A DNA stretch of 64,000 nt from positions 17,352,530 to 17,416,529 of the forward strand of contig OZ026601.1 in the NCBI GenBank assembly GCA_964020085.1, given 5' to 3'. Below are positions 6,755 to 61,993 of the stretch, piece by piece. The notes beneath the pieces were generated by a model. That model was not told where the DNA came from and did no database searches. It saw nothing but the letters and a program-made list of their open reading frames with translations. The position numbers were made by a program, and so were the translations under genes. Source of the DNA: Micromussa lordhowensis. Lineage: Eukaryota > Cnidaria > Anthozoa > Scleractinia > Lobophylliidae. The stretch's first letter is position 1. Each line of letters starts with the position of its first letter.

Positions 6755-6845
6755 TGCGCCTATATTTTCACGATTCGTGTTCTCTGCACCATGTTGATTC
6801 TCCTGAGACTCTTCCCGCGCAATTTCATATTTGGGCTGAGGCTAA

Positions 6846-6909
6846 TATTTCAGCCCGGGCTGAAGTTGGTCATGAAATCGCAACAAAATTTCAGCCCGGG
6901 CTGAAATTC
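6846..6909. repeat. Two palindromic ATTTCAGCCCGGGCTGAAAT-like sites
   Basis: The perfect 20-bp palindrome ATTTCAGCCCGGGCTGAAAT lies at about 6889-6908, and a near-copy ending GAAGT at about 6847-6866. Both are just inside the right end of the Harbinger remnant. They may be subterminal transposase-binding sites, but that function is inferred from position. Confidence 0.7.
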
Positions 6910-7169
6910 GCTTTGTAATCAGGCCCTTACTTTGTACGAGTGATCTACCTCCTATTGCAAGACACCATTTTGGAAGGGCAACTTATGGCAGCAGAACAAC
7001 TTCTATAGCAATTTTGTCACAGTTTTGCAAACCTTTATCAAGAACGGTACAGAACTTTAAATGTTCAGCAACTCCTTCATCCAATGGATAATGAGAAGAC
7101 CTTGAGCCCCTGTACACCAACAGCTGTTTTTCTTTTGACGACAAAAAATAATAGGTTTATCTTAAGACT

Positions 7170-8348
7170 TATTCACAGTTGATGCTGACCACATACTCCT
7201 ATTATCCCACAAAACCATTGGAATACTTGCTGAAAAAGCTTTTGCTGGAAACTGGTTTAATAACACCCACAATCTAAACCTCACTATGGAATTGCTCAAG
7301 GTTGAAACTACAAACCAGCTCTTTCAACTTGATGGTATACTTTACAAACAAGTGGAGGGCATTGCCATGGGCTCTCCACGTGGGCTACTATTAGCCAACA
7401 CCTTCATGTGCTCCATAGAAGAAGAATTAGAAGAGAAAAACGAGCTCACCTCCTTCTATAAATGGTACGTGGATGATACTTTCACAATCATGCCAGACCT
7501 CGACAAGCCAACGTTTTTCTCGATAAATTGACCTCTTGCCACGAGAACTTGAATTTCACTACGGAATTTCCATTGTTGGCATGAACATTACTAAATGTGG
7601 AAACAGACTTTAAACATCAGTACACAGAAAGTCCACAAACACTGTCCTGCTCCTTCACTATCACAGTCATGTGGACAAACGATACAAAAGGTGTTTACTT
7701 TCCACAAAGATCAACCACGCTTATTGCCTGTCATCGACTCGTACTGCCTTTTCCTAGGAATGCGATAAGCTTTGAACTACCTTTCTAAACCTGGATTATC
7801 CTGTAAATTTGATCAATTCTTCGATTAATAAATTTCTGCATAATATCGATAATATTAGTGCGCCTGATGAAACAAGTGATGGCACCTCTGAAATCTTCGT
7901 ACCGCTAACTTTCAAAGATCCGAAATCAGTTAACTCAGTAAAAAGAAAAATGCAAAATCTAAGCACAAAAATTGAAGTGCAAATCAAGCCTGTCTTTCAG
8001 TCTAAGAAGATCAGCCAACTCCTCTCCCTAAAAGAGGAGAAGCCCCCCATTGTAAACAATCAATTTCAACTTAACTTCAAACTTCAACTTCAACTTTATT
8101 TAAAGAATAGCGGGTATACAACCCGACACTTACACCAACACATTGGCGAGCATAAATATTCTGCAATTGGAAGACACTTGGAAGATCATGGCCTATCAAA
8201 GTCCGATTTGAAGGACAAACAATTCTCTGTTTTGAGAAAGTGTAGAATGAAGTTTGACTGCTTAATATTTCCGATGTTGTTTATTAAGAAGTTAAAACCT
8301 GGGCTAAATACCCAGAAGGACTCCATTCATGCTAAATTGTTTACATGA
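7170..8348 (+). pseudogene. Penelope-like element: RT catalytic part and GIY-YIG nuclease, decayed
   Basis: The frame around 7170-7531 reads FAGNWFNNTHNLNLTMELL, then VEGIAMGSPRGLLLANTFM and YVDDTF, the RT core of Penelope-like elements; usual GSPLGPLLAN has become GSPRGLLLAN. After shifts near 7530 and 7790 the frame 7809-8348 gives the C-terminal nuclease region with GYTTRHLHQ and IGEHKYSAIGRHLEDHGLS, ending at LNTQKDSIHAKLFT. The N-terminal RT fingers are missing. The GIY-YIG core strands just before GYTTRHL are replaced by a hexanucleotide-rich stretch. Confidence 0.85.
8062..8097 (+). repeat. CTTCAA-like hexanucleotide repeat within PLE nuclease
   Basis: Sequence here is mainly repeats of CTTCAA and AACTTC, translating as alternating Gln/Leu/Phe/Lys. 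It sits where a GIY-YIG domain would have its first strands, so it is either a microsatellite expansion or filler at a deletion. Confidence 0.6.
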
Positions 8349-9423: not shown

Positions 9424-10241
9424 CAGGATGGTAAGTGATCAGGTAGGCATGTTTAAGTGAAGTGGGCATAAATGTGCACGTAAGCTTATTTGTTTGCGAA
9501 ATTTTATCTTAGCATTGTAGCTTCGATCGTTTCAAAAGCATCTGGTGTTTCTACTTCTATTTTAGTCACAAAGAGCAGTTCCCTCAACTCAACAGCAGCA
9601 AATTAAGCTGTTGTCTCTCTAACGTTCACTCGGACCTCATGTTACTTCAGCAATCATGTACAGCTGGACAAAAAACTTTAAGCCTAAATTACAGCCAAAA
9701 CTTTTTTTCAATTGAGGCACATTAACTCAACCAAATTTACGACCTTAAAAAATTGGGTTTCTTTTATGCTCTACCTGTGTTGAGGATGACGACCTAAAAT
9801 TTAACCTAAATTTCTTTGATTGGAGCTGTTTGATTCATCTTTGGTTGCCCTTCGGTTCTCTGTGTTGATTTAAGGCCTTAATTGGGCCCTGTTAAGGTTT
9901 ATCAGGGCCATAAAATTTCGTACAGAAAAGACTTTCTCCACTGAAATTAAATCAGTGCATGGTGCAGAAGGTGACAAACTTATCAAACCATCAGAGATTT
10001 CTTTAAAGTGCATATGAAGGAAAAAAAAAATTATTTGGTATGATAATTTAGTATTTTCTGAGTACAAAAATGAAAATTTCAGTGATTACGACCTTCTATA
10101 CAATTTTTTTTGGAGGGGGGAGCGCAAAGTTCCAATTTGGCGCCCGGATAGTGTTGCCATTTCTGCTTGGCCAAAAACGATACCATGGCAAGGATGTGAT
10201 GTCATTAGTTGCACAGAAGACAAGAGTATTGAAAAAGGTAT
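9424..10241. other. Intergenic, no supported gene
   Basis: No frame with recognisable content on either strand. It includes a poly-A run near 10019 and a poly-T/G run near 10105. Confidence 0.5.
9936..10046. other. Short A-rich stretch, no gene
   Basis: Contains the poly-A tract at about 10020-10030. I see no LINE coding sequence directly upstream, so I do not call it a retrotransposon tail. Confidence 0.3.
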
Positions 10242-20734: not shown

Positions 20735-22666
20735 AATCAACCAACCATTTATTATTATTATTTGAGTCTATAGTTTAAAGGATTACACACCCGCTTATAG
20801 CAGAGCTAATCTAGGCGGGTTGTACTATTTACAATATATATTTACTGTGCAAAAAGTGATAGCAATTGTCACTACCGCGAATACTTAGCTAGTACCAATT
20901 TCGCCAGTTCCTTTTACTTTGAACCGGTCATTTCATCTGACATAGAGTTAGAAATCTCGCTTCTACAATCTAAAAAGGCTTATGGGCTATATTCATGTCC
21001 TATTCGCGTTTTGAAATGCACAAAGAACGTACTTTCACCTCCCTTAGCCGAGCTTATCAACCTCTCTGTTCAAACTGGAAAGTATCCTTCCAAGTTAAAA
21101 CACGCAAAAATTATCCCGGTATACAAAGGCGACGATGAGACCGACCCTAGCAACTACCGTCCTATTTCGTTACTTTCCGTCTTTAACAGGATTTTTGAAC
21201 AAAATTATGTACAACCGATTAAAATCATACATCGAAGATAATGAACTTTTATATAAAGCCCAGTATGGCTTTAGAGAGACATTTTCCACTCAGCATGCAA
21301 TTTTGGACATTGTGAGTATGATACAAACAAATATGGACAAAAAAATGTTTACATGTGGCATTTTTCTGGACTTTAAGAAAGCGTTCGATACGGTCAATCA
21401 CATTATTTTACTTGATAAATTGCACCATTATGGGATTAGAGGTATTGTACATGAGTGGTTTACGTTGTACTTAGCTAATCGAACACAAACAACACACATT
21501 GACAGTGACCATATTTCATCCAAGAAGAACTCGATAACTGGAGTTCCACAAGGGTCTGTTCTAGGTCCTTTACTTTTCCTGATTTATATCAACGACATTT
21601 ATCTGTGTAGCAATAAACTTGGTTTTTATCTATTTGCTGATGACACAAACCTATTATATGCTGACAAGGACCTGAATACCCTGGAAACCGTTGTTAATAA
21701 TGAGCTAAATAGTGTCTGTAACTGGCTTAATGCTAATAAACTAACCATTAATGCAAAGAAATCAAACTTTGTCATCTTTAGGCCAGCACAAAAAAGAATT
21801 AATCATCAGCCGTGTATCAGAATTCCGGATAAGAAAAATAATGGATTCGCGCTTCTTGAATGCAAAGATTATGTAAAATTTTTAGGAGTACTGATTGACA
21901 AAAACCTAACCTGGAGGCCTCATATTGATCATATCGCCTCGAAGATTAACAAAATAATAGGTATAATTGCCAGGCTGAGGCACCATGTACCTTTAAATAC
22001 CCTTCTTCAAATTTACCGTTCGCTGATATTTCCCTACACGCTCTACGGTATACTTGCTTGGGGTCAGGCTTCTCAGTGTGAATTAAAAAAGATTCTCACT
22101 CTGCAAAAGCGCGCACTCCGCCTAATTTTCTTTGCCAGTAATAGATCCCATGCCATCCCTCTTTTTGTTGCTTCCAACATCTTACCTGTTAATATGCTCT
22201 ACATTGAAACGGTCTCCACCATAATGCATGATGTTTCTACTCATTGTACACCTAAAAATATTCGTGAACTTTTTATACATGCATCTGACGTTCATGCATA
22301 TAATACGCGTTTCTCGGCTGCAGATAATCTTTTTGTACAGAAATCTAGATTGAATATGAAACTTAAGTCATTTCCTGTGTTCGGTACGAGATTGTGGAAC
22401 TGTGTACACCCAGATTGGCATAAGCTCACGAAAAGAGCATTTAAAAGAAAAATTCATAAGTTGCTTCTTCTAACTGTACTTGAGATTGAGGGCTATTATG
22501 TTGATGCCCATTCTGTAATATTGAATTTAAACACAAGTAATTATTACACCCTATAGCTATCAATTTCGCATGTAGTCATATTTTTTACTTTACACATTTT
22601 TAATTTGCTTTACCCTTGTACTGTTATTGTACGTGTATCTATTTAGTAACTGTATCACCCTAAACC
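20735..22666 (+). mobile_element. CR1/L2-like LINE inserted in PLE, 5'-truncated
   Basis: 1.9-kb insertion with RT coding in the + direction, bounded by the 5-bp duplication AAACC. The 5' part begins inside the region before RT, so it lacks endonuclease. I see neither a poly(A) nor a microsatellite tail at the 3' end. Confidence 0.8.
20870..22556 (+). pseudogene. CR1/L2-like reverse transcriptase, one frameshift
   Basis: First frame: SDIELEISLLQSKKAYGLYS to DPSNYRPISLLSVFNRIFE. A shift near 21200 leads to the main frame ending at 22556: KAQYGFRETFSTQHAILDI, GIFLDFKKAFDTVNHIIL, GVPQGSVLGPLLFLIYINDI, FYLFADDTNLLYA (catalytic box) and the C-terminal region ending LNLNTSNYYTL. RT is otherwise complete, so this is a young copy with a single visible break. 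Confidence 0.85.
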
Positions 22667-27096: not shown

Positions 27097-28554
27097 CTAG
27101 TCTAACTGGTAATCCTGCATCCGAGCAGGGGGTCTAACCGCTCTTCTAGGGCGTCGCACAGCTGGGACAGGAGCCGGTTCAGCACTTGGAGGATTCTTGG
27201 GCTCCACTGTAACAGACTGCGGTGACGTGGGGCCAGGACTGGGAGTTTTAACTGGATTTTCTGAAGCTCTGTGGGACTCTGTCTGCTTGGGGGTGCTACC
27301 CTCGGACAGCCAATCAGGAGCATTTGGTCCACGATATGGCTTCAGACGATCATGGTGCACAACTTTGGGCTTTGATTTGGCCCCTTTCTGGATGCGGTAG
27401 AGTACATCACTCATCCTTTTCATGACTAAATAGGGACCATCGAATTGTCGCATCAACTTGGGGCAGATATCTTTCTTCTTCTGGGGACTGTACAGCCAAA
27501 CTGCATCGCCCTTGTCGTATCGACGATGACTTACGGGGCGGTGATCATAATTCCTCTTCTGGCGATCGCTACTCAACTTCAAGTGCTGGCGGGCAAACTG
27601 GTGGATCCGCTCCATTTGCTCACTTAATTTGGCAGCGTACTCCATCGTACTGTTTCCAGTACGTTCTGCTTGCCCGATAACCAGGTCGAGTGGGAGAAGT
27701 GCCTCACGACCCAACATCATTTCATTCGGTGAGAAACCAGGAAACTCATGTACAGAGGAACGATACGCCATCATAAGGAGAGGTAGGTAGAGATCCCAAT
27801 CCGTTTGGTTTTTGTCAACAAATTTAGAAAGCACGGCCTCGAGGGTCCTGTTGAATCGCTCAACCATGCCGTCAGACTGTGGTTGCAAAGGTGTGGTCCT
27901 TGTCTTGTCAATTTCAAGGATCCTGCACATCTCCTGAAACAACTTAGATTCAAAGTTCCGCCCCTGGTCAGTGTCAAGCTGCCTCGGTACTCCAAATCTT
28001 GAGATAAACTCAGGAACGACGACGTTAGCCACAGTCACAGCTTCCTAATTGGGCATGGGATAGGACTCTGTCCATTTCGTAAAGTAATCTGACATGACGA
28101 GGATGTATCTGTTGTCGCTATCAGTGGTCGGTAGGGGGCCCATGACATCAATTGCAATCCTTTCCATTGGGGCTCCGACATTGTAAGTCTTCATTGGCGC
28201 TCGTGGAGTTTTACTTGGCTTCTTCCTCGAGGAACAAACATCACAACGAACGCACCATGATTCAACATCTTTTCGTAGACCACACCAGTAGAAATGTGCT
28301 TTCACCCGCTCGTCGTTTTCTTGAAGCCAAGGTGTCCCGCTGCAGTCTGTCCTTAAACTGTCGGGGAGAACCAGCTTCCAACTAATATCGTCTCCTCTTT
28401 CTGACTCCCACTTCCTGAACAGTACGCCATCTCTGACAGCTAACATGGACCACTGCCCCCAGTAACACTTCAACATAGGACTCTTTCTACTGATGGTTTC
28501 CCAAGGTGGGCGTTCTGCATCTGCTCCTTTAGCCTGATGAGGGTCCCGAGGCAT
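27097..28554 (-). pseudogene. Gypsy integrase, DD35E, one TAG stop
   Basis: The N-terminal zinc region (HFYWCGLRKDVESWCVRCDV) precedes the core: IDVMGPLP (first Asp), DTDQGRNFES (second Asp) and SDGMVERFNRTLE (Glu). A C-terminal GPY/F-type module reads QFDGPYLVMKRMSDVLYRI. The frame is continuous except for TAG at 28045-28047 between MPN and EAVTVANVV, probably CAG to TAG. There is no chromodomain; the tail is proline-rich and ends ARMQDYQLD. Confidence 0.9.
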
Positions 28555-29919
28555 GGGTCACGCAGCTGGGCTTCCCTTATCTCCATGTTGGACAATGTCA
28601 CCAGCCAAGAACTTGCACCGGTACTTACATCCTGCCCCTTGGGAACAAGATGTTCTGCAGTCTTCATTGCTGTTGCGCAATGGTATTCCTCGTCGTCTGC
28701 CTTATTCCTTTCGCTGTCATCTTCCACTGGGTCTGAGTGGTGGAAGCGTTCTTCTTTCTTCTCGCTGTGTTCACAATGCCTGCAGTTGTCACACGGACGT
28801 CGGGAAAGGCCTTCTGCATTTCCATGGTTTTGCCCTTGGCGGTGTTCAACTTCCAGGTCATATATGCCGAGGATCTCGATCCACCTTGCTGTCAGCCCTT
28901 CTGGGTTCTTAAAGTTCATCAGCCACCTCAGTGCACCGTAGTCTGTTCACACTTTAAAATGTCTTCCATAAACATAGTGGTGGAAATGCCTCACAGCGGT
29001 TACTAGGGCCAACAATTCCTTCCTTGTTACACAATACTGCTGTTCAGACTTCGTTAGGCTACGGCTGAAGTAGGCGATAACCTTCTCCTCTTCCCCTTGT
29101 TTCTGTGACAATACAGCTCCGATGCCTGTGTTGCTGGCATCAGTGTCTAGGATGAAGGCGCCCTCTGACGTAGGGGAAGCTAGCACTGGTGTCTGAGCCA
29201 AGACTTGTTTGAGCTGGTGGAACGCGACGTGACATTCACTTGTCCACACAAAGACTCTATTATTTTCTGTTAGACAGTCTAAGGGAGCAGCAACGTTAGC
29301 AAAGCCATGCACAAATCGTGCGGACTGCCTTGATCTTTTCTGGATCCGTTGACACGCCCTCCTCACTGACCACGTGACCAAGGTAGACAACTCGCTTTTT
29401 GAAGAGGTGACATTTCTTTGGGCTCAACTTCAGCCCTGCTTCCCCGAGTCTGGTGAAGACTGAATGCAGCCGCTCCAATTCCACTTCGAAGGTCGCTGCA
29501 TGCACGATGATGTCATCAAGATACAGAAGGCACACCTCCCAAGGGAGACCACTGAGTACCCTTTCCATAAGCCGCTCGAATGTAGCAGGTGCATTACAGA
29601 GCCCGAAAGGCATCACAGTGAACTGGTAAAGGCCACTCCCCGTGGTGAATGCTGTCTTCGGTCGATCCTTCTCTGCAACCTCAACCTGCCAGTAACCACT
29701 TGCAAGATCAAGCGTACTAAACTAACAGGAGCCAGACAGGATGTTGATGGAATCATCTATGCGCAGGAGTGGGTAAGAGTCCTTTACCATGGCAGAATTG
29801 AGCCTGCGGTAATCCACGCAAAAATGGGTGGTCCTATCCTTTTTATGGACTAAGACAATTGGGGATGCCCATGGGTTGGATGAAGGTTCGATGGCTCCAC
29901 GCTTTAGCATGCTCGCCAT
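28470..29919 (-). pseudogene. Gypsy reverse transcriptase and RNase H, with stops and a deletion
   Basis: RT: SPIVLVHKKDRTTHFCVDYR, then TAG at 29722-29724 where Trp is usual, FSTLDLASGYWQ, MPFGLCNAPATFERLM and YLDDIIVHA. After KIKAVR (near 29320) the frame shifts and RFVHGFANVAAPLD follows at once, so the connecting segment before RNase H is deleted. RNase H reads FILDTDASNTGIGAVLSQ, with TGA at 28947-28949 in place of Arg after HFKV, then TDYGALRWLMNFK. The linker to integrase shifts frame near 28515. The TGA fits CpG decay. Confidence 0.9.
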
Positions 29920-29930
29920 TTCTCCCTCCG

Positions 29931-31043
29931 CTACTGCCCGTTGACTAATGGGTAAACATCTACGGTTTTGACGAATAGGCTTGCTTTCGTTTGTGCGGAT
30001 TTCATGCTTGTTCTTCCCATGTCATCGGCAGAATGAGCAAACACATAAGCAAACTCAGTTAACAGCGCTGTGACTTCATTTTTCTGAGTTTCTTCCAGAC
30101 ACGATGCAGTTCTCTGGTAGAAGTCATCGAGGTGGCGTGGTAACACCGTGGTAGAAGGAGTCACTCTACAAGCTCTCCCAGCAGGTGCATCTTCTGTCCG
30201 CCCTCCCGGTTGGCTGGCTTCGGAAATTCCCTCCACTGGTTGGCACCATGCAGCAATAGTGTCTCGGTAAACAGTTTGGGGTTGGTCTGTTGGGTTGAAC
30301 AGTCTCAGGGGGACAACGGCATTGGTTAGGTCCATGAGAGTCTTCGCAACCAGTAGCTGACTCTTCCGAGTGAAACGTACTTGACCCTCTGTGATGCTAA
30401 GGAAAGCTTCCCCACATCGGTCGATTACTTTAGCCGGAACAAGGCTTTCACTCCTGGGTGGTATAACAGTTGTCACCTGCACGACAACTCTCGCACACCT
30501 CGGCAACTGGTCTCCTCCCACACATTCAGTCACATGCCCATTCAAAGCAAACTCATGACGTCCCTGTCCTAAGGTCAACCGACAATTATGCTTTTTAATG
30601 AAATCCATGCCAATGATCCCATCCAGCTCTATCTCCACGACCCACACATCGTGAAAGACTTCCTCTTCGCCCAAGCAAATGCGGAAACGTCGGCGGCCTA
30701 AGAATGGAAGGCAGTTGCCATCGGCGAGAAGCATGCTGGTCTCCACTCGTTCAAGGGGTGGGCATTCCGGGGCATTTATCCTGTTCAACACAGATGGCTT
30801 GACAATTGTGACATTTGCTCCTGTGTCCACTAGAAAAGTCACTTCAACCCCAGAAACATGTCCTTTAGCCAAGGGGCCATCCTCGGTGTTGGCTACCTTT
30901 TCTACTACTGGCTGAAGGGTTGGGAGCCTTGCAGTGGAGGGGGCAGCTGAGTTCTGGCTTGCAAGCGTGGCTGGGAGCCGTTTCCTGACTGTGGTTGCCT
31001 TTGTCCTGGGCAATCGCACTGTAAGTGGTTGAGGGCACCACAA
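29931..31043 (-). pseudogene. Gypsy protease region (retropepsin) of pol
   Basis: An open 370-codon frame with VTFLVDTGANVTIVKPSVL, the aspartic protease active site DTG, and a flap-like GIIGMDFIKKHNCRL 65 residues later, which is a typical retropepsin ILG-type motif. Downstream is a spacer of about 200 residues before RT, which begins in the next frame. It overlaps the gag C-terminus in another frame, consistent with gag-pol frameshifting. This piece itself is intact. Confidence 0.85.
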
Positions 31044-48540: not shown

Positions 48541-50321
48541 CTAAACATGAGAGCACAAAACGAGAAATACATTAAGAATTTCTCAAATAAAGCTCTTTCA
48601 GATGACGAGGTGAAACTTCTTTCTAGAGGTCTTAAATTCATACCAACCCCCCCTGTTCCTATTTCTAACAAATCCTTACTAAAGGATTTTGATAGATTCG
48701 CTAGAACTATGCGTTTAAAATACATGTTCGCAAATAAAAAGAAAACTACAGCTGACCCCTTCCATGTTAAATCTACATGGCAACCACCGATACAAAGCTC
48801 GGTTGCCCTCAAAGATTACTTGGAAGAGACTAAGCTTGAGCTAGCTTCTATAGTTTTCAACCCACAAAGAGACAATATCTCAGCGAACGAAAGAAAAGCT
48901 ATCAGCTCACTTAAACGCAACAGCGAAATCAACCTTAAAAAAGCCGACAAAGGAACAACAACAGTCATTATGGACACCGCACAAAAAATACAAGAAGGCT
49001 CACAACAGTTATCAGATGATAAATTCTATAAGCCTCTACCATCTCCTATTGTGCCTCAAACAACCCGAAAAGTCTACGCAATAGTTAACAAGCTATTCCG
49101 TTCGGGTCACATTGACAAAATGACTCACAAATGGTTAACAACAGACCTTAAACAACCGCGAATACCTGAATTCTACACGCTGACTAAAATTCACAAAAAA
49201 ACACCGGTCGGCAGACCAATTGTTTCTGGTAGCAGCGGTCCGACAGAGCGTATTTCCAGTTTCGTTGACTCACTTTTACAGCCAATCGCCACTAAACAGG
49301 AGTCATATCTTAAAGACACTACCGATTTTATTAACTTTATTGAAAACACGCAAACTCCAAACGATGCAGTGTTAGCCACACTTGACGTTAGTTCTCTTTA
49401 TACAAACATTCCTCAATCAGAAGGAATTGATGTTATCTGCCGTTACTATAAAGACCATTATGAGCAAAAACTACCCATTCCCACAAACGACTTGCGGGAA
49501 CTAATGCGGCTCATACTTGAAGAAAATTCTTCCAAATTTAACGAAAGACACTTCTTACAAATGCACGGCGTTGCCATGGGAACAAAAATGGCGGTCGCTT
49601 TCTCTGTTATTTTCATGGCAGACCTTGAAAATCGACTGCTTATGGCTAGCCCTTTCAAACCTCTAGTTTGGAAAAGATTTATCGATGACATATTCTCACT
49701 GTGGAACATTCCCGCTAATGAAGTTTCGCCAACTCTTTCCACCATTCAATCAAGTTTACTTGCGAAATGTCATCAGAACGCGCTGTTTTCCTCGACACCG
49801 AGGTCCTTAAAGGACCCCGTCATTCAACTCACAAAATCTTGGATTTACAAACACACTTTAAGCCTACTGATACTTTTCAGTATACGCACTTCTCATCTTG
49901 CCATCCCTTTAACTCTAAAAAGGGTTTTATCAAAGGAGAAGCGTTACGTCTTTTGAGAACAAACTCAGTCAAAGAAAACTTTGAAAAAAACAAACAAGAA
50001 TTTGAGGAAAGGATATGTCAAAGAGGCTATCCCGTAAAACTCGTTCAAAAAATTCTGAGTGAAGTTCAGTTCTCTGACCGACAGGAGGCTCTTCGCAACA
50101 AAACAAAACAAACGAAAGAAATACTACCGTTTGTTACAACTTTCAACCCAGCCGCACCGAATCTTAAAAAGATTTTCATGAAACGCTGGCACATCATTCA
50201 ACAACAGCCTAGGCTCAAAGATATATTTAATCAGCCACCGATTGTTTCTTATAGAAAGGAAAAATCGCTCAAGGACGTTCTTGTCCGCGCTAAAATTCCT
50301 TTAACAAAACAACAATCATAA
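48541..50321 (+). pseudogene. Penelope-like RT, nearly complete, one frameshift, no GIY-YIG
   Basis: Frame 48547-49956 covers the N-terminal region and RT: LKKADKGTTTVIMDTAQKI, FYTLTKIHKKTPVGRPIVSG, LATLDVSSLYTNIPQSEGI, MHGVAMGTKMAVAFSVIFMA and FIDDIFSLWN. A shift near 49775 leads to 49767-50321: FLDTEVLKGPRHS, FIKGEALRLLRTNSV and SYRKEKSLKDVLVRAK to a stop at 50321. The order and motifs are those of Penelope-like elements. There is no nuclease domain in the next 370 bp. It is inserted in the polymerase B gene. 48547 may not be the true start, since coding similarity begins at the junction. Confidence 0.85.
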
Positions 50322-50515
50322 CAAGAACGAAGTACTTTCACTTCGAAGGAAATTTGCATATGATCACTGCTAACGACTCTTTATATTAATACACGCATGC
50401 CGACTGCGTAACAACGACAGAGTCAAAATAACCGATCATTAATTCTAGATCCGTTTTAGATGATCTTTTTCCATTACGAACGTAGAAGCTGTGGACTCGT
50501 GGCCTTTATTTAAAC

Positions 50516-50695
50516 CTCAACTGTGACTGGCATAACCGAATGAGGTGGCTCAACTTCGCCAACACCGCCAACCAACGACATTGATAGAACCATTGCAGAT
50601 TCTATCTTTAATGGTTGCAGTAATGAACTCTTTAAGTGGATGGCATGCCACCAAATTTGGAAAACACATCTGAGGAGGCAAGTCACTGCAGTAAG

Positions 50696-50696
<1 letters not shown>
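50516..50696 (-). pseudogene. Interrupted ORF, downstream half (DIRS-like RT lead region?)
   Basis: The minus strand from the junction reads YCSDLPPQMCFPNLVACHPL then KEFITATIKDRICNGSINVV. After a shift near 50580 it gives EVEPPHSVMPVTVE to a stop near 50516. The upstream half is at 59401-59632. PP..VMP(L/V)TVE-type text precedes the RT in some DIRS-like elements in cnidarians; this assignment is from memory. Confidence 0.45.
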
Positions 50697-50727
<31 letters not shown>

Positions 50728-51065
50728 GATATCCGTTAAACGGATAAAAACGTTTAGTATCCGTTTAATATCCGTTTAAACGCTTCGTAAAATCCGTTTA
50801 ACGTTTTTACCAAATCGTTTAAACGGCAAGGCCATCCGTTTATCTTATAACCTAAAAGCGTTAAAACGGCAAACGGGAGCGTTTAAAATATCCCGTTTAA
50901 CGGGAGCGAGCTTATCGATCAGTGTTTCCTAAACGAACCGTTTAAACGGCCATGACGTACCGATATCCGTTTATTGACCTAACAAATGGTCTAGACGACC
51001 GCTATCCGTTTATAACAACGTTTAAAAGGGAACCGAGTTATCAGATGAAGAAAACGGTCTTAAAC
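50697..51065. repeat. Left TIR and subterminal CGTTTAAACG zone
   Basis: The perfect 56-bp TIR is followed by about 310 bp with three full CGTTTAAACG palindromes (near 50771, 50814 and 50940) and many partial ATCCGTTTA or CGTTTAAA copies. Repeated short palindromes near both ends are the usual layout of transposase-binding sites. Confidence 0.8.
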
Positions 51066-51704
51066 GGAAAACTCAAACTGCTTACATTAAACCCCTTCAA
51101 ACTTTCAACCTGCACGTGAAAGGTCTAAATGGCAAAGATTCGTAATCCGTGTAATTAAGCTCAAACCTAAAATTTACCGAGAGAAATTATTTGGATTACT
51201 TCACTAGAAATTTTCCCGTAGCTCAATAGGCAATTTTCTATTCTTATTCTTTTCGAAGGTTAGATTTTCACTCACGTACAAACTTAAGTTGTGCACTGCA
51301 ATAAATCCAAACACTTTGAGGTGACAAACATCATTTATTTAGCTTTGACTTACTGGTGAACGGGCGCTAAACCTTCCCACTGAAGCCCTTGTCGCCGGGT
51401 CTTCGGAACGTGTTCGATTGACATACTGTAATAGTAAACATTTCTAGACACATTCTCCGTTTTTTCCTTAGTCAATATAAAATTATTCGTTCTCCAAACT
51501 GACCTCAAGCGATTTCAAAGAATAACTTCATCACAAAACTCCACGTGACGTGAGTCTGTCTAGTGCCCAGGAAAATGCGCGCAATGCTTCGTCATAGCAA
51601 CAAGCATTTGTTTACAACAGCTTTCAAGTGTTGCATGTATACTCTCGAAGAACGATGGAAGGAGAAGACGAAATGGTTTTGAGCATTCCGAAAATGAAAC
51701 TGAG
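51066..51704. promoter_or_regulatory. 5' region of the transposase-like gene, no clear core promoter
   Basis: AT-rich. It should contain the promoter of the gene at 51705. I could not point to a convincing TATA box or start site. Confidence 0.3.
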
Positions 51705-53405
51705 ATGTCTGCCAGTGTAAGGAAATTCTTACAAGACGGCTGTAAATGTTCCTGCGGTCCCAGAGATGGTCCTTGTTCGTCACAGTTTACTGAAGAAACG
51801 GTCATGTCAAATTTGAATAATTGCCTCGAATTGTCTTCAAGCGAACTTGACCTGGTTATTTTGGCAAACATCCAAGCTGTCTCTCGCAGTGAGCAAGTTG
51901 GAGAAAAAAGGAATAGAAGCCCTCGATGCAACTTCCTTTTTCAATCTTAACCTATTTGCAGAGAAATGTTTTTGAAGTTGTATGGTTTAAGCTACTCACG
52001 CTTTCGAAGACTAAAGGAGCATTACGAAGATAACGGCTTATCAAGGAGAACTCATGGAAACTGCAAGAGACTGCCACCTAATACAGTTCCTCATGCTCTA
52101 GTAGAAGATGTTAAAGTATATCTGGCAAACTATGTTGAGGAAAATGCCATTTCACTCCCTGGAAGGATCCCCGGCTACAAAGACGACGACATTAAACTGC
52201 TTTCTTCACATGAAACGAAGATGGGCGTTTGGCACGCTTTTGAAAGTGCGTGTAAGGCGGCGGGAAAGCAGGCTGTCTGTTATTCCAAGTTCATTGATTT
52301 ATGGCAACAATTCCACCCCAGCGTTATTGTCGCAAAACCGATGACTGATCTTTGCCTGACTTGTCAAGAAAACACTTCAAAACTGCTTAGAGCTGCAAAT
52401 CTGCCAGATCAAGAAAAGTCGCAATGCGTTCAAGCTCAACAGGAACATTTAAACTTGGCACTTGGTGAGCGAGACTTGTATAGGGATGTTTGTCAACAGG
52501 CGACAGCCAATTTTGAAGCCATTGAAGACACCATTGATTTAAGTGAAAGTCACGATCCTTGCTCACTGAATACAACAATGCACTATTCATTTGATTATGC
52601 GCAACAAGTGCATATACCTAGCAACCCAATGCAGCCTGGCCCTATCTACTTTAAAACACCGAGGAAATGTGGCATTTTCGGCATCACGAATGAAGCGATA
52701 CCTAGACAAGTGAACTATTTAATTGACGAAGCTGTTGATGTTGCAAAGGGCGCGAATTCTACAATAAGTTATGTTCACCATTATTTTTCAAACCATGGAC
52801 TGGGGGAAACACATGCTCATCTACACGCGGACAACTGTTCGGGACAGAACAAAAATAACTTCTTTTTATGGTACTTCGCTTGGAGAACAATAACTGAACT
52901 TCACCACCGTATCACTTACTCTTTCCTCATTGCTGGCCATACCAAGTTTGCACCCGATCGCTCTTTTGGACTCATAAAGAAGGCGTACAAGGTTAAATTT
53001 ATCTCTTCTATTTATGAATTTGCAAGAATGGTTGAGTCTTCGAGTTCCAGGGGAGTGAACAAGTCACAGTTAGTAGGCACCCATGACAATAGAGTTATCG
53101 TGCCAGTGTACGACTGGGCGTCATTTCTTGGACAGTATTTCCGTAAAATGCCAAACATCAAAAAGTATCAGCACTTTCGATTCTCCAAGGATGAACCAGG
53201 AATTGTTTATTTTAAGGAGAATCGATCCTCTGCCGAAGAGTCCCTTATGTTATTGAAAGATCCTGCAGTTTTCCCACCTCGTGCTGTTCTTCCTGGGAAA
53301 ATTGATCCAGAAGGATTGACTGATGACAGAAAGAGGTACTTGTACCGTGAAATCAGACAATTTTGCAAACCAGGAACCGAAGATCTTGTTGCCCCAGCTC
53401 CATGA
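51705..53405 (+). pseudogene. DUF7869-like putative transposase, one in-frame TAA
   Basis: One frame of 567 codons including two stops. Residues 1-81 read VRKFLQDGCKCSCGPRDGPC and DLVILANIQAV; TAA follows at 51948-51950, then PICREMFLKLYGLSYSRFRR. From Met at 51966, landmarks are a CxxC pair at residues 130-133, MHYSFDYAQQVHIP (D210), HADNCSGQNKNNFFLWY (D289) and GHTKFAPDRSFGLIKKAY (D331), ending GTEDLVAP. The DNCSGQNKN and GHTKFxPD blocks resemble DUF7869-type proteins of transposons; D210/D289/D331 are my guess for an RNase-H-like acidic triad. The TAA makes this copy doubtful unless translated from the internal Met. Confidence 0.6.
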
Positions 53406-54329
53406 AGTATTCAGAAACTGAACAATTACCATCCAGAGCCATCGATCAAAGGCCATTGTATGCACTGTGCTACTCTGATGCATTTAGATTTTAGCTTATT
53501 TTATATCAATTACATTATTACTAGTTAAATGTTTATTTCCTCTATAATAAATGGTAGACCTGAGTGCAAACCAATGTTTTGTTCTATTCATTACTTGTTT
53601 TTTTCTGTGTAGTTGGGCTCAATTTCCCCTAATCTGTAGTCTGCGTAGCAAGCATTGCCGTAGAGAGCTTTTCCGCATTCTGGCCGCGAGAGCAAAAGCT
53701 CGCGTGGCCAGAATGCAGGAAAGCTCTTCGTACGAGAAGGCTTGTTATGCAGGCTACCCAATCTGCCTCTCGTGTTCAATATTCGTTTCGGGCAAGTCAC
53801 TTCCCTTTCAGTGTCAAATGGAAAAGAGCCTGTAAAATAAAAAAACTGAGATAAGTCCTAGTATCAATGGTCCCGCAAGGAAAAATACTGACTTATCAAA
53901 ATTTACGAATTGAGAAGTACGAATGAATGGAGAAAGGCTCTAAAACAAGTGCAAACCGTGAGTTTGTGCGAAGGCAAACCAGAAACAGGTAGATTTGTAG
54001 CAAAGCACAAAGTGCAGTACTAAAGCTTCAAGAGAATTGAGTTCAGAATTTAGCTTGTTTTATGACACTGATTGTTCAACTGTCCGCATTAAACTAATCG
54101 CGCATAATTTCATTCAAATAGGGCAACATAAGAACAATAGTAACAAATATTTATGCTAATTCTGCTGTCATCCATCTGGTTGTTTTCGCAACGTACCACA
54201 ATTAGCCAATGACAGTTCGTGTTTTGTGCCTGTATAGAAACAGCATAGCAACAAATTTTTCATTTCAAACAACAACCTGCTCGTGTACGCACCGAAACAT
54301 TTATTTCCTGTCCAGAAGCTTAATACAGT
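53406..54329. other. Intergenic spacer with a small foldback element
   Basis: Between the two transposon genes. It holds the foldback at 53636-53760; otherwise AT-rich with no frame. The BEN gene promoter should lie in its last few hundred bases. Confidence 0.4.
53636..53760. repeat. Foldback/MITE-like inverted repeat, about 125 bp
   Basis: GCATTCTGGCCGCGAG and CTCGCGTGGCCAGAATGC face each other across AGCAAAA. The outer arms (GTCTGCGTAGCAAGC against GCCTGCATAACAAGC) extend pairing to about 55 bp per arm with mismatches. It is a short palindromic insertion inside the larger transposon. Confidence 0.75.
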
Positions 54330-57300
54330 ATGTCAATTAATGATAAAGTCCAAGTTCTCTGGAAGACGAATTGTGGATGGAGAGATCGCCCCCACTGGCC
54401 AAAACGTCGTGAAATCAAGCTCCGACAAGGCGATTCAGATGAAAATTCAAATCTACCACTCAAACCTGGCGACCTCGTGAGAATCAATTTTGGTTCCCGC
54501 TGGTATGATGCAGAAGTCGCTGAGCATTGGAATCCAAAATCAAAGAAACTGAAAGGTATGTGTCTTCAGTTGCTTCGAGTTATGATTAGAATAGTTGTTA
54601 AAAAATTTTTCCGGTTTATTATTCGGGCTGGCTCGCCGGCTCGGCAGTCGTGTAAAGTGTTTAAAGAACGAGTAAGGTATATATTTTAGTGGCTCGGCGG
54701 CTCGGCAGTCGCGTAAGGTGTTTAAAGAACGAGTAAGGTATATATTTTAGTGGCTCGGCGGCTCGCCGGCTCGGCAGTCGCGTAAAGTGTTTAAAGAATG
54801 AGTAAGGTATATATTTTAGTGGCTCGGCGGCTCGTGGCTCGGCAGTCGCGTAAAGTGTTTAAAGAACGAGTAAGGTATATATTTTAGTGGCTCGGCAGCT
54901 CGTGGCTCGGCAGTCGCGTAAAGTGTTTAAAGAACGAGTAAGGTATATATTTTAGTGGTTCGGCGGCTCGGCGGCTAGCCGGCTCGGCAGTCGTGTTAAG
55001 TGTTTAAAGAACGAGTAAGGTATATAATTTAGTGGCTCGGCACCACGCCGGCTCTGCAGTCGCGTAAAGTGAGCCACTCGGTCTTTAGACATTCAAGGCA
55101 ACTGGCGAGCCACCGAGCCGGCTCAACAAATATACCTAGAAAATTGGCCCTGTATTCTGTAGTTATGCCAAAAAACCTATTAGTAAGGATGGAAGCTTGG
55201 CCATTGAAGGTATCGAGTCAGTTCGGTTGAAGGTTGTTTCGATCGAGAATTCATTCGATCAAAACCAAAGGTCAGTTTGATCGAAGCAAAGGTTGTTTCG
55301 ATATAAGGGCAAATGATGATAAAAACTACGGTCTTGCAAGCAAGCGTACAAATAAAATAATGAAAGTTCTTGTGTTGTGTATTGATTGTGTAAGATGCGC
55401 GACGCGGCACCTTAGCTGCCGTTTTCAATATATGATTTTGTCCATAATTTCGTTGTCGGCATTCGAGCGTTCGTTATCAGAAACGAAATAACTCTATGTC
55501 TTACTTGATCTGTCGTTGCCAAATTGTCTTTTAACAAACAGCAAACTCCTGTCAAAGACTTCAATGGGTCCTTAGCTGTTAAGCGCGTATTTCTAATAGA
55601 AACCCAATCCTTGAAACGGTATCCGGTCAACTCGCCTACCCGCCCACTCGCCCACGCCAACGCCTACTGGTGCGGAGTAAAATCGCTATAAGAGTCTCAT
55701 TCGACCTGTCGTTAATAGAAAAAGAATGTAAGAAATAATTTTGTTTTCACTCTCTCTTGTCACCAGCCAAAACAACCAGCCCAACCGAAAAAAAGGAACC
55801 CGCCACTTTGCCAGTGAAAACTCCAACCGCGACTGAGGGATCCGCAACTTCGCCAGCGATAGCCCAAACAACGAGCAAAAAAACTACCACCCCAGCAGTC
55901 AATGATCCCTATAAGGATTTCCTGGCAGAGCAGAAAGAAAGGGAACTTGCGTGGAAGACACAGCGAGCAGTAAAAAAGGCCAGACTCGACAGTTGTAAGA
56001 ACTCAACGACAATTGAGGAACAGGCAATCGAGATATCAGATGCTGGTGACGAGTCTGTGGATCAGGTCAGACGCTTGCAACAGCAACTCGATGCTAAGAC
56101 TGACGAATGCTGTCGCCTGAGGAGCCAACTTTTAAAACTCAAGGAGGATAATGCCGAGACTGTAAGAACCCATCTTGAAAGCCAAGAAAGACTGTTTAAG
56201 GTTAGTTAAATTTCTGTATTTCTTTCTCTCGTGAATAATTTCAATTAAAGCCTGTAAAATTCACAAAATTTTGTATAAGCCAAAGATTAACTCTAACTTT
56301 AGAAGAGAAAGTAACTGAAAGTACCAAATTGTTGGACTTATTTAAGAGTTTCTGTCTTGGGGAATAAGCTGTACACGGTGAACAAACCGTAAAATTTAGC
56401 AGATCGCAGACCCATCTGAGGAAACTTAACCTTTTTTTCGCTTATCGGATTTAAAGAAAGGCGAAAGTTGTTTATCCGTTGATTGTTCTTTCAAAGTACA
56501 TTAGTTTCACATGGTTCTGAGAATAGTGGGTAAAAGCAAAACGTAATAAGACTTAATATTATGTATTTCCTTACAGATGATGGAAGCGATGAATGACTCT
56601 GTAAAAGCCATTGAAGAAAAAATGTCAGTCGCATTCACCAAAATTGACGATCGCCTGGAATCGTTAGAGGCGCAAACGGCCGGTTCTTTGGTGAGCAAAT
56701 TTTAAAGGTTTATTCTTCAAGCAATTCTGGTGATGTATTTTCCCGGAAATTTCGTCTGATACTGAACATAACTTTTTGCATGGGAGTTGTAACATTTATT
56801 ACATAGTGAGAAAATTAAAAAAATTGGAAAAATAGTGAAATTTGGGAAATATAACTTTGCTTTCCACTATACATTTTTCAGCAAACCTGCTGCTTTAAAG
56901 TGTATCCGAATTGTGTTATCATATCTTTTTGCTTTTCTTTCTAGTTCAACGGATCTGTCAACTATGGTGCTCCTAACAGTGCTAATGCGCTGATAGACCC
57001 AACTTCTGATCCCTCATTAAGCGAATCTGATGACCTACCAACCATCGATGCTGAAACCTTAGCTACAGTCTGTGGTGATCCTATCTTCCCAGAAGCCATA
57101 CTCAGCACTTTGAACAATCCAGGAACACCTCTCCAGCAGCGCATTCCAGCAGCAGTGACACCTTCGCCAAACACAGTGGCATCTCAGCTAGCTGATGTTA
57201 GACCAGAACTTATCTCCACTTGTGTGACACCAAGTAAAGTCAGCAAAGTCAAGCAGATGCTTGCTAGAGAAAGCGAACGTCACAAGTGCACTTTGAAGTT

Positions 57301-58260
57301 GCTACCCTACTTCTTTACCAGAGAAGAACTAGCAAACAGTAACACTGACGGCACGCACGGAAAAGATTGTCTAGACGGAACTAAACTTAATGCTTTGAAA
57401 GTTCTAGTTTTTACAAAGTTCCCTGCAAGTTCTGAACCAGAGAAAGATAAGGTTTGGAGAGACCTCAAAGGCAGAATAAACGCAAAGTGTCGTTCCAGTA
57501 AGTTTTTTAACGGACAGGGACGCAGGGATATACGTAGTTTGTGAAGTAATGTAGTGGCAAAGATGTTAATTTGATATTAATATGAATAAATGCAGGTACA
57601 TGTTTTTCTTTGCTAAGTTGTCTCAATTTGTCTGCATCGCGTGGCACTGACACCCAAACAAACCGCGAGCTATAAATCTGATTGCAAAAGTTCGGATGAA
57701 CGATGGGAGGGCTTGAGTTGTTTCAAACCGCAAGTTGTTCAGTTTTCGTCAGTCAGCTTCGATTCAGAATAATTATTGTTTGTTTACGTCAGAAAATCCG
57801 TGAAAAAGAATCTTAGGGACGCCGTTTTCCATTTACAAACAATTTCGGAAAATGTCTATTGGAAATTTCCGATGCTTGTTAATGCTTATCGGCATATGTG
57901 GTTATGAGAAGTCTGACATCGGGCCCCTCTCATCTTTCTAGGTTTACAGTGCTAGAGACTTCACCTGTAAACGAAGAATTTCAAAAGAACTTTTCAAAGT
58001 TGTTCATGCAACAGTTTACACGCTGGAAACGTTACACCGGCAAAAAACACTTTGAACAAGCAAGAATTTTTACCTACCACTTTTATATGCAGCACATACG
58101 TGCTGCAATAAATTTCATACATCTGGCACTAGAACGCGGCAGGCAGAGCACTCGTAGTAGCCCTGAAAGTTTGTTTGCTAAAAGCTTCCAGAAAACTCAC
58201 CCTCATCAGCTGCCATTTTTGTTGAAACACGAGGGAGCCGAAGGAGGCCTGGACGCTTAA
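54330..58260 (+). CDS. BEN-domain protein, five exons, 545 aa
   Basis: Exons 54330-54555, 55767-56200, 56577-56690, 56945-57497 and 57950-58260; donors GTATGT, GTTAGT, GTGAGC, GTAAGT; all acceptors end in AG. Lengths sum to 1638 nt (545 residues plus stop), and every junction keeps frame. Residues 1-75: a Tudor/SH3-like segment (LKPGDLVRINFGSRWYDAEV). 76-220: Thr/Pro-rich, then a coiled coil (VRRLQQQLDAKTDECCRLRS). 221-258: more helix. About 370-442: BEN domain (LLPYFFTREELANSN, CLDGTKLNALKVLVFTKFP, VWRDLKGRINAKCR). 443-545: an unassigned helical, aromatic region. BEN domains bind DNA and recruit chromatin factors, so a role as the element's DNA-binding or silencing-evasion factor is plausible but inferred. 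Exon 4 could instead run on to a stop at 57544. Confidence 0.7.
54620..55075 (+). repeat. Minisatellite, six units of about 61-76 bp, in BEN intron 1
   Basis: The block AGAACGAGTAAGGTATATAT recurs at about 54665, 54726, 54797, 54863, 54932 and 55008, each followed by GGCTCGGCGGCTCG-type sequence and GGCAGTCGCGTAAAGTG. Unit length varies because the GGCTCG element is repeated one to three times. It is much more GC-rich than its surroundings. Confidence 0.85.
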
Positions 58261-59135
58261 AAGACTGCGAAAGGCATGGAACGGATAGAGACGAGAAATA
58301 TGTAAAAGGAACATAAATTTTCCATGGGGAAGTTTCCACCGGGAAAACAGGACTACATTGTAGCTTTTCACAAATTTTTTGGTAAATGGAAAATGCTCTA
58401 TAGGTATCATGAGACAAGTTGTGCAACGCGGGAGCCTGGACCGTAGAGTAGAGTGGGCTTCACGCGCGTGCGCCCTGGGCTGTTGCTCGGACTATATTTT
58501 CCCCGAGAGATAAGGTTAGTTTCTGCCAGTAGGGCTGTGCAATGCAGATATATATCGGAAATTAGAGACGCAAGAATTGAAAAAAAAAAAAACAAAACCT
58601 GAGGGACATGATCGCGAAGAAAGTGAAAGCTTCAAGAAAGCAGGTAAGGTCAATTTGACATGTGAACAACATTCGTCACGATCGCAGTGTTTCTTCATTA
58701 ATCGGTTTTGGTTTGAAGCTTTTCTTGCCGTGACTAATTATTCTTTCCATATCAGTCGGGAGCTTTCTTTGCTGTATAATTAACTTTTACTTTTCTTGTT
58801 TTGATTTCCATAAAACGTTTTCCATGCTTATTTTTAACTGTTACTTTCCGTAAAACGCTTTTAGTTTTGTTTGCCGACATGTAAGCTTACGATATTTTGA
58901 ATTTGCTAGAAAGTTTCACATGCTCCTGCTCGCTGTTTGTTTTTCATCTACCTGAGCAAAAGTTTTGCCAGCGTCATTCGCATGTTTTCAGGGATTGCTG
59001 TACAAGTGTTTTCAATATTTTGAATTTTTGCTTTCAAATGCAAAAACGCTTTTAGTTTTAGTTTGACAGTTCTGTTTGCTTTTTATTTCGTATCTACTTG
59101 AGCGAAAGGTTTTCCAGTCACTTGACACTTTGACC
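58261..59135. other. 3' flank of BEN gene, no gene
   Basis: T-rich, with degenerate CGTTTT/AAACGC motifs from about 58815 merging into the right subterminal zone. No open frame of interest. Confidence 0.4.
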
Positions 59136-59369
59136 ATCCATTAATCACCCTACCGTTTAAACGCTTTGTTATCTGTTTACAGTTCTCGTTGCCGTTAAAA
59201 CGCTTTTGCTGTTCATTTGAAAGTTCCGCTTGCCGTTTAAACGCTTGTGACCTACCGTTTAATGATTAATTCTTATCCGTTTAAACGGTATGAGAAAACG
59301 TTTAAACGGTCTGGAAGCCGTTAACTATCCGTTTACGATACGTCCGTTTTTATCCGTTTAACGGATATC

Positions 59370-59400
<31 letters not shown>
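59136..59400. repeat. Right TIR and subterminal CGTTTAAACG zone
   Basis: Contains four CGTTTAAACG palindromes (near 59153, 59232, 59278 and 59300) and then the perfect 56-bp TIR. It mirrors the left zone in motif content, though outside the TIR the sequence is not an exact inverted copy. Confidence 0.8.
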
Positions 59401-59401
<1 letters not shown>

Positions 59402-59632
59402 AGTTTTACCTTGAAAGGCACCGTTGAAGGGAGTGAAGAAATCAAAGACATCCACGCCATTTTCAATAATGGCTAGTACGAAATCTCTTTTCTCGTAACC
59501 CACAGAGATTTGATTCCATTGGTCTAAACATGTGGTAAGGTTTCCCGCCACAAACAAATCTGGATCGCGAAATCGAAGCCTGTCTGGAGATGCGAAAACG
59601 TGGCCCTCAGCAACCATTTCTAATGACGGGAG
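59401..59632 (-). pseudogene. Interrupted ORF, upstream half (DIRS-like?)
   Basis: The minus frame reads GPLPSLEMVAEGHVFASPDR, LFVAGNLTTCLDQWNQISV and ENGVDVFDFFTPFNGAFQGK, up to the transposon. An in-frame TAG lies just upstream. Joined with 50696-50516 the frame stays open past the junction. FVLxIIxxG followed by an aromatic-rich turn is seen ahead of RT in DIRS-like proteins, so the tentative label is a tyrosine-recombinase retrotransposon remnant. Confidence 0.45.
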
Positions 59633-60142: not shown

Positions 60143-61993
60143 TTACTTGAAACTGTGGCGACTTAATTTAGATTTGAAATCGGTAAGTTCCAATCTTTGA
60201 TAATAGAGTCTTCTCCACCCTAGTGCGCGGAACAGATCATCCAAATTACTATCATAGCTCGCAGACATTAGGATGCGAGCTGCGCGATTTTGAAGCCTTT
60301 GCAGTTTTTCAGAAAGGCCCTTGTTACAGTTTCCCCACACTACATTACAATAATCAAAATGTGGTTGAATGAGGCTATTATAAACATTAACTAGAACATT
60401 TAAAGGAGTAAGATGCCGAATTCTTTTAATTGCACCAATGGCACACGCTATCTTCTTAGAGACATTTTCAATATGACACTCCCAGTTTTTATTTTGATCG
60501 ACATAAACTCCAAGGGATTTAGCAGAGGTTACTTGTTCTATTGCGTTTTCGTTTATAGCAAGAGAGGGACTTTCCATAAATTGTGATAACTTCTGCCTTG
60601 ACGCAATAAGCATAAACTCAGTTTTTGTCATATTTAGGGTGAGCTTGTTAGCTGACAGCCATTCGTACACATTACTCAGGTCGTGATTAAGGCAATAATT
60701 TATATGCTCAATGTCAGTACTGGCAAGCGTCAGGCTGGTATCATCTGCGTACATTCTGGGTTCCGAATATGTCAGACAATGTGGCAAGTCATTAATATAA
60801 ATCAAAAACAGAAGAGGTCCCAAAATTGTTCCCTGGGGAACACCACATCTTAGACCTTTGGGAGTTGACTTATGAGAATTTAGATGACAAATCTGTGTTC
60901 GATTAGCTAAATAAGAAGCAAACCATTTATGGCTGGTCCAACAAATCCCATAGTGGTGCAATTTTCTTAACAAAATATCGTGATCTACTGTATCAAATGC
61001 CTTTTTGAGGTCTAAAAAGACTACGGCATTAACAAGACCACGGTCTATATCCATTGCCCAGCTATCTGTAGCTTCGATAAGTGCTGTAAGCGTGGAATGC
61101 AAAGACCGAAAACCAGATTGATGGCACAAGAGAAAGTTGTTTTTAGTTAAATAATGACAAAGCTGGTCGTAAATTATCCGTTCGAAGACTTTGGCCACAA
61201 TTGGAATTACTGAAATTGGTCGGTAATTCGTCGGATCAGAGCGCTTCCCAGAATTTTTATACAATGGAGTGACTCTGGCAGATTTCCATTCGTCGGGAAA
61301 GATGCCAGTCATTAAGGATTGATTAAATATATGAGTAAGAGATTCCGCTAGTACATCGGGACATTCCCTTAGAAGTTTCGCTGATATATTATCTAATCCA
61401 GTCGCCTTTGACTTGCAAAGTTTTGATAGTAGTGCAAAAACATGTGTTGGTGTTTTTTTTTCAAAAACAAAATTTTTATCAGTTTCAGTAAGAAATTCTT
61501 CAAAGGATTTATCAACTTCTGTCACGTCTCTACTAAGACTTGGCCCAATTTCTGTGAAAAAGGAATTTAGCATTTCTGCTATAGCTGTTTGGTCGCCAGA
61601 ATTTACCCCATTATATTCCATCTTATTAATAACAGTTTTATTGGACTTTCGCGAAGTCAGTTCATTAATTGTTTTCCATGTTTTCCTTTGATCTCCAAAA
61701 CAATTTTTGAAGGCATTTTCATAATAAGCTTTTTTCGCGCTATTAATTTCCCAGTTCACTTGATTTTTAACCATTCGAAATTGGTTCCAAATAAATGGAT
61801 CTTTTGTCTTAATAGCCTTTCTTTTGAGGCGGTCTCTGAAATTCATCCGCTTTTTCAGAATAGAGGTTATCCATTGGGATTTAGAATTTCGTGTCCGTTT
61901 GGTCTTCATCGGTGCGTGCTTTTCACACACATTCAAGAACAATTCTTTCCACCTTTTCCACATATCATTAGGATCATGCAATTGCTTTGTCAT
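60143..61993 (-). CDS. CR1-like reverse transcriptase, open frame (616 codons)
   Basis: Contains the linker (KKRMNFRDRLKRKAIKTKDP), then RT: LPTNYRPISVIP-type block (SDPTNYRPISVIPIVAKVFE), HQSGFRSLHSTLTALIEATD, VVFLDLKKAFDTVDHDILLR, CGVPQGTILGPLLFLIYIND and MYADDTSLTLA (catalytic), then the thumb and a C-terminal PHFDYCNVVWGNCNKGLSEK. It ends LTDFKSKLSRHSFK. RT looks complete and may retain activity, but the endonuclease is in another frame and truncated. Confidence 0.9.
   Translation of the reverse strand: MTKQLHDPNDMWKRWKELFLNVCEKHAPMKTKRTRNSKSQWITSILKKRMNFRDRLKRKAIKTKDPFIWNQFRMVKNQVNWEINSAKKAYYENAFKNCFGDQRKTWKTINELTSRKSNKTVINKMEYNGVNSGDQTAIAEMLNSFFTEIGPSLSRDVTEVDKSFEEFLTETDKNFVFEKKTPTHVFALLSKLCKSKATGLDNISAKLLRECPDVLAESLTHIFNQSLMTGIFPDEWKSARVTPLYKNSGKRSDPTNYRPISVIPIVAKVFERIIYDQLCHYLTKNNFLLCHQSGFRSLHSTLTALIEATDSWAMDIDRGLVNAVVFLDLKKAFDTVDHDILLRKLHHYGICWTSHKWFASYLANRTQICHLNSHKSTPKGLRCGVPQGTILGPLLFLIYINDLPHCLTYSEPRMYADDTSLTLASTDIEHINYCLNHDLSNVYEWLSANKLTLNMTKTEFMLIASRQKLSQFMESPSLAINENAIEQVTSAKSLGVYVDQNKNWECHIENVSKKIACAIGAIKRIRHLTPLNVLVNVYNSLIQPHFDYCNVVWGNCNKGLSEKLQRLQNRAARILMSASYDSNLDDLFRALGWRRLYYQRLELTDFKSKLSRHSFK

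Follow-up and report, generated by a model that had tools for sequence, protein, structure and literature searches.

Several described transposon systems share features with the 8.7-kb element studied here, which lies in a 64,000-nucleotide stretch of the Micromussa lordhowensis genome (contig OZ026601.1, positions 17,352,530 to 17,416,529; this whole stretch is referred to as the window) and carries a gene of the Pfam family DUF7869 together with a gene for a BEN-domain protein. En/Spm (CACTA) elements combine a transposase and a DNA-binding partner (TnpA/TnpD) with repeated subterminal motifs, as in the elements described here, but their duplication is 3 bp long, their ends are of the CACTA type and their transposase is a different one. 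VANC of the VANDAL elements is not a BEN protein, and the transposases of the Sola superfamily are reportedly of the DDD type (three catalytic aspartates). In VANDAL/VANC an element-encoded protein likewise acts on rapidly diverging noncoding repeats, the difference being that these are plant elements (PMC10398659). IS481EU elements exhibit 4-bp duplications in several of their families and TGT...ACA termini, the latter shared here only when the edge T/A is counted as part of the element; they also exhibit duplications of about 15 bp and were described from parabasalids, a comparison of descriptions and not of transposase sequences (PMC10045372). Mariner-type elements such as Mos1 differ in that they duplicate TA (PMC10045372).

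Sola2 elements have 4-bp AT-rich duplications of the form AWWT, e.g. ATAT, AAAT or ATTT, are several kilobases long and in some cases contain an extra gene, which there is Fanzor1 (PMC3627910). Among the 11 matching duplications that we observed, nine were AWWT, the exceptions being AAGT and AGAT. Differences were apparent in the terminal inverted repeats (TIRs), which measure 12-21 bp in the elements that PMC3627910 describes and about 57 bp here, as well as in the palindromic subterminal arrays and the BEN gene as partner. The accessible portions of the open-licence literature (PMC3627910, PMC9976928, PMC12477816, PMC10294476, PMC5199201 and PMC4455052) contained no Sola2 motif or sequence. 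Membership in Sola2 is probable, the likeness being one of published duplications and not of transposase sequences; the original prediction, made from the DNA of the window, had excluded Sola on general knowledge, a view that the fit of the duplications puts in doubt.

Ends, target sites and copies in the genome

The two TIRs of the window element were complementary at 57 of 57 positions (50696-50752 and 59345-59401). If the edge T/A is counted with the duplication, the TIR measures 56 bp and the duplication is AAGT; with flanks reading AAG/T...A/AGT, this is formally equal to a 57-nt TIR with a 2-bp AG duplication. Because the empty site is the same under both readings, the edge T/A is assignable to neither TIR nor duplication.

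A search of the 581-Mb genome for the left end returned 40 scored matches among 147 candidates. Twenty matching loci were retrieved at 10 kb each, and 12 of these had a second inverted end within range, which together with the window element resulted in 13 end pairs for comparison. Identical 4-bp flanks were present in 11 of the 13 pairs, namely ATAT (L013, L014, L019, L020 and L022), AAAT (L011 and L026), ATTT (L016), AATT (L028), AGAT (L012) and AAGT (window element); the flanks of L015 and L018 did not match. All 11 copies with matching flanks had A at -3 and T at +3, and the target is therefore described as ANNT. Both the DUF7869 and the BEN gene were found inside all nine end pairs of at least 4.8 kb (window, L011, L013-L016, L019, L020 and L026), which correspond to about five families and are partly non-independent, given that L013-L016 belong to a single family and L020/L026 to a second. 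The smaller L012 (3.1 kb) holds part of the DUF7869 gene only, and L018, L022 and L028 (1.0-1.4 kb) are without either gene, resembling miniature inverted-repeat transposable elements. In the eight loci with the second end out of range (L009, L010, L017, L021, L023, L024, L025 and L027), both genes were matched in L021 and L025, only BEN in L010 and neither in the other five. The window's own subfamily is rare, with L009 as the only closely similar locus among 24 compared (99.5% across 831 bp at the left); in the genome, the next DUF7869 match of full length was 76% identical.

With a left end that recurs in the genome and identical flanks in most end pairs, the arrangement exceeds chance. The elements constitute a real multi-copy DNA transposon family with two genes that are retained together across families. 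The perfect 56-bp inverted ends and the AAGT duplication of the original prediction were thus borne out, and the genome search with the TIR, which had been set beforehand as a test, revealed that the TIR pair is not unique and that other copies keep the gene content, apart from the four small ones (1.0-3.1 kb) lacking one or both genes.

The pairing extended to a lineage 50-54% identical in DUF7869, in which a BEN match was located within the same 10 kb in three of four loci (L030-L032), with no BEN match in the 10 kb of L029; for these four loci pairing means a shared 10-kb locus and not a shared element, their element ends not having been found. The layout of the two genes varied, as they were on the same strand in the window, L013-L016, L020, L026 and L031 and convergent in L011, L019, L025, L030 and L032. 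The distant locus L030 also contained a different repeated motif, GGCGAATTTGGCG, at 6706-7206 and 9757-9974, a candidate for the end array of its lineage.

The DUF7869 and BEN genes

The DUF7869 domain (PF25273) scored 64.6 bits compared to a Pfam cut-off of 26, and 1615 homologues were detected in one search (E <= 0.001); where close matches were named proteins, these originated from Oculina, Montipora, Acropora and Stylophora. An internal TAA divides the frame of the window copy into 81 and 479 codons, while a relative with an open frame (P0001, 583 amino acids) is 96% identical over the 479 residues. Since the full-length enzyme would no longer be made from one frame, the window copy would need transposase from other copies. 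The predicted fold features a ribonuclease H (RNase H)-like core resembling Mos1 and retroviral integrases, and structural alignments to these cores share the acidic triad at a sequence identity of 6-13%. Among 74 chosen homologues, the residues D210, D289 and D331 (D314, D393 and D435 of P0001) were conserved in 74, 73 and 74, respectively. Foldseek with the transposase model yielded no match at E <= 0.001, and the transposase profile matched no solved chain, its three rows (E 0.29-1.4) being unrelated. No relatives were found in viral contigs. Two rows suggestive of DUF7869 fusion proteins, with frames of about 2200 codons, were rejected, as their length stems from N stretches.

Features that define cut-and-paste DDE/D elements were present in the form of recurrent TIRs, a duplication of fixed length and an RNase H-like fold with three acids, the last by prediction and conservation. 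The DUF7869 protein is a likely cut-and-paste DDD transposase, as judged from its modelled fold. A transposase gene at 51705-53405 had been proposed originally, to be checked for an RNase H-like fold with acids at D210, D289 and D331; structure prediction and conservation agree with the fold and the acids, and the Pfam score with the family, but the frame is not continuous. The role of catalyst that had been assigned to this protein is supported by the transposase-like predicted fold and the three aspartates, from which catalysis itself is inferred.

For the BEN gene, a four-exon model predicted from sequence encodes 457 amino acids, and the annotated Oculina protein P0121 exhibited 57% identity over 98% of this product. 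P0121 continues past the splice site proposed earlier, with a tail that resembles unspliced exon 4; the fifth exon was therefore rejected, and the five-exon gene originally described is replaced by a model in which four exons suffice. The BEN domain (PF10523) scored 36.4 bits compared to a Pfam cut-off of 23.2, and 38 proteins were found by a profile search with the BEN protein, those with names coming from Oculina, Montipora and Acropora. In other families (e.g. L011, L014 and L020) the tblastn blocks break near codons 73-82, 203-221 and 253-262, similar positions that suggest shared introns; an extra break near codon 410 was observed in L019 and the distant loci L030 and L032. Differences between the window and L020 at the first, second and third codon positions numbered 97, 74 and 204, and since they fall mostly in third positions, the BEN protein appears to be under constraint. 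The third-position excess was weaker between the window and L030 (50, 40 and 64), and the distant loci are less clear.

The BEN partner is predicted to contain a coiled coil and a BEN domain. The model of P0121 (predicted local distance difference test score 63.9, six sequences) includes a long helix (173-251), a C-terminal helical domain and an N-terminal beta-rich part of low confidence. Rows 1-24 of a Foldseek search with this model were all BEN domains, the top one being DNA-bound BANP (7yuk, E 2.7e-5; 93 aligned columns, 1.7 A, 30% identity), and the profile of the BEN protein matched chains of BEND3 and BANP with E 1.4e-6 and 8.4e-6. The element protein thus has the BEN fold in common with BANP and BEND3 (chains 7yuk, 8yzt and 7w27), which differ in being host chromatin factors that are not transposon-encoded and in having published targets other than CGTTnnAACG (PMC11472053).

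Palindromic arrays and alternative explanations

In the window element, CGTTTAAACG was present three times in the first 500 bp, four times in the last 500 bp and not in between. The more general CGTTnnAACG occurred nine times within the element and not in the remainder of the window, compared to an expectation for both 500-bp ends of 0.09 on average and 2 at maximum (2000 first-order Markov sequences). The CpG observed-to-expected ratio of the ends was 1.31-2.13 in 13 of 13 copies, a value partly raised by the motif itself and taken from two end slices that overlap in the smallest copy; it was 0.82-1.08 in the interior of the ten copies long enough to measure and 0.68 for the rest of the window. 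Array centres, counted over whole loci, were mainly TA in the window, L011, L012, L017 and L022, mainly CG in L020, L021, L025, L026 and L027, both TA and CG in L018, TA with AA or TT in L013-L016 and AG half-sites in L019. Across six families the centre (TA, CG or AG) tracked neither BEN nor DUF7869 similarity and therefore does not support the idea that either protein co-evolved with the array. Co-variation of the centre with BEN or DUF7869 similarity was rejected; the BEN domain of the window (TA) was nearest to that of L020 (CG), at 70%, compared to 59% for that of L011 (TA).

Unmethylated CpG is preferred by BANP and BEND3 (PMC11472053) and palindromes are bound by several BEN domains (PMC10206803, PMC7764960), so that the BEN protein is a good candidate for binding the arrays; by this analogy, binding to the terminal palindromes is plausible.

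Our preferred explanation, which we consider probable, is that the element is a DNA transposon that moves by cut-and-paste and has two genes, its most likely place being in the Sola2 group of the Sola superfamily. Its DDD transposase, the DUF7869 protein, would cut at the GTGACC...GGTCAC ends and insert the element into ANNT sites, mostly AT-rich, with a 4-bp stagger. The BEN protein would dimerise via its coiled coil, and its BANP-like BEN domain would bind the CpG-bearing palindromes repeated within each end, with the CGTTTAAACG and CGTTCGAACG arrays as candidate targets. It might bring the ends together or label them for the transposase, maintain them in an open, unmethylated state, or do both, a role modelled on TnpA of En/Spm or VANC of VANDAL. 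The window copy would depend on enzyme supplied by other copies.

The BEN protein could instead stand outside the transposition reaction, as a regulator that was captured and has been kept for its action on host chromatin, where it would serve as insulator, repressor or tether of the element. Its resemblance to host chromatin factors, the varying gene order and strand between families and an array centre that does not track BEN similarity are in line with such a role, but the retention of both genes in all nine large end pairs, the proximity of BEN and DUF7869 in most loci of the distant lineage and ends rich in palindromes of the type bound by BEN domains render it somewhat unlikely.

Placement of the DUF7869-BEN elements in a superfamily of their own, with the 4-bp AT-rich duplication arising by convergence, is doubtful, because their duplications agree with those published for Sola2 in length and AT-rich ANNT form. 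In its favor, the portions of the Sola2 descriptions consulted mention neither long TIRs with palindromic arrays nor a BEN partner, and DUF7869 is not named in any paper of the open-licence literature searched. Of the undescribed two-gene transposon suggested originally, the multi-copy family with both genes stands, but an undescribed superfamily does not seem likely. A related and rather unlikely proposal regards DUF7869 as a separate transposase family and the BEN protein as a sequence-specific, element-encoded partner adopted long ago, which would read the CpG palindromic arrays in the elements' own ends and protect them against silencing as an animal counterpart of VANC, the centres shifting between families. 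That a host BEN gene or another element was merely trapped between two ends is highly improbable. In its favor, the window and the retrieved loci are full of other repeats by eye, but a chance or nested arrangement is largely refuted by nine copies, from about five families, in which matched ends enclose the same two genes.

Feature coordinates, surroundings and implications

Table 1. Coordinates of the element's features in the window
Feature	Positions	Strand	Remarks
Target site duplication AAGT, left	50693..50696		Its T could instead be TIR base 1
Left TIR, 56 bp (57 with T at 50696)	50697..50752	+	Complementarity, recurrence in genome
Left subterminal array, CGTTTAAACG palindromes and CCGTTTA half-sites, CpG-rich	50753..51070		Limits approximate
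DUF7869 gene (likely transposase)	51705..53405	+	TAA at 51948-51950; parts 51705-51950 and 51966-53405
BEN gene, exon 1	54330..54555	+	
BEN gene, exon 2	55767..56200	+	
BEN gene, exon 3	56577..56690	+	
BEN gene, exon 4	56945..57544	+	Contains BEN domain, through stop codon
Right subterminal array, CGTTTAAACG palindromes	59148..59344		Limits approximate
Right TIR, 56 bp (57 with A at 59401)	59345..59400	-	Complementarity
Target site duplication AAGT, right	59401..59404		Its A could instead be the TIR's final base

Within the element, a minisatellite (unit of about 68 bp, 5-6 copies) occupies 54629-55071 in BEN intron 1, and a hairpin with 30-nt arms (87% complementary) and a 4-nt loop lies between the two genes at 53664-53727. 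The flanking open reading frames (ORFs) 50510-50722 and 59372-59617, both on the minus strand, appear by eye to be one reverse-transcriptase-type repeat ORF interrupted by the transposon; no Pfam family matched either of them. The window is dense in retroelements by eye, with ORFs of the long interspersed nuclear element reverse-transcriptase type, a Penelope-like ORF and a Gypsy-like integrase/protease region at 21135-22556 (+), 60143-61993 (-), 48547-49956 (+) and 27097-31043 (-). No Rfam families were found within the window.

BEN genes have been described for host chromatin factors and in bracoviruses (PMC4574769), and a BEN gene paired with a DNA transposon was not found in the open-licence literature searched. 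The new part is the pairing of DUF7869 and BEN together with palindromic CpG-rich arrays, and with it a BEN protein as the second gene of a DNA transposon. The comparison also suggests what DUF7869, so far a Pfam domain of unknown function, is likely to do. With arrays so clearly palindromic and rich in CpG, one can test whether proteins encoded by animal transposons mark or protect the ends of the elements themselves, and the pairing may show how some of these transposons recognise or protect those ends.

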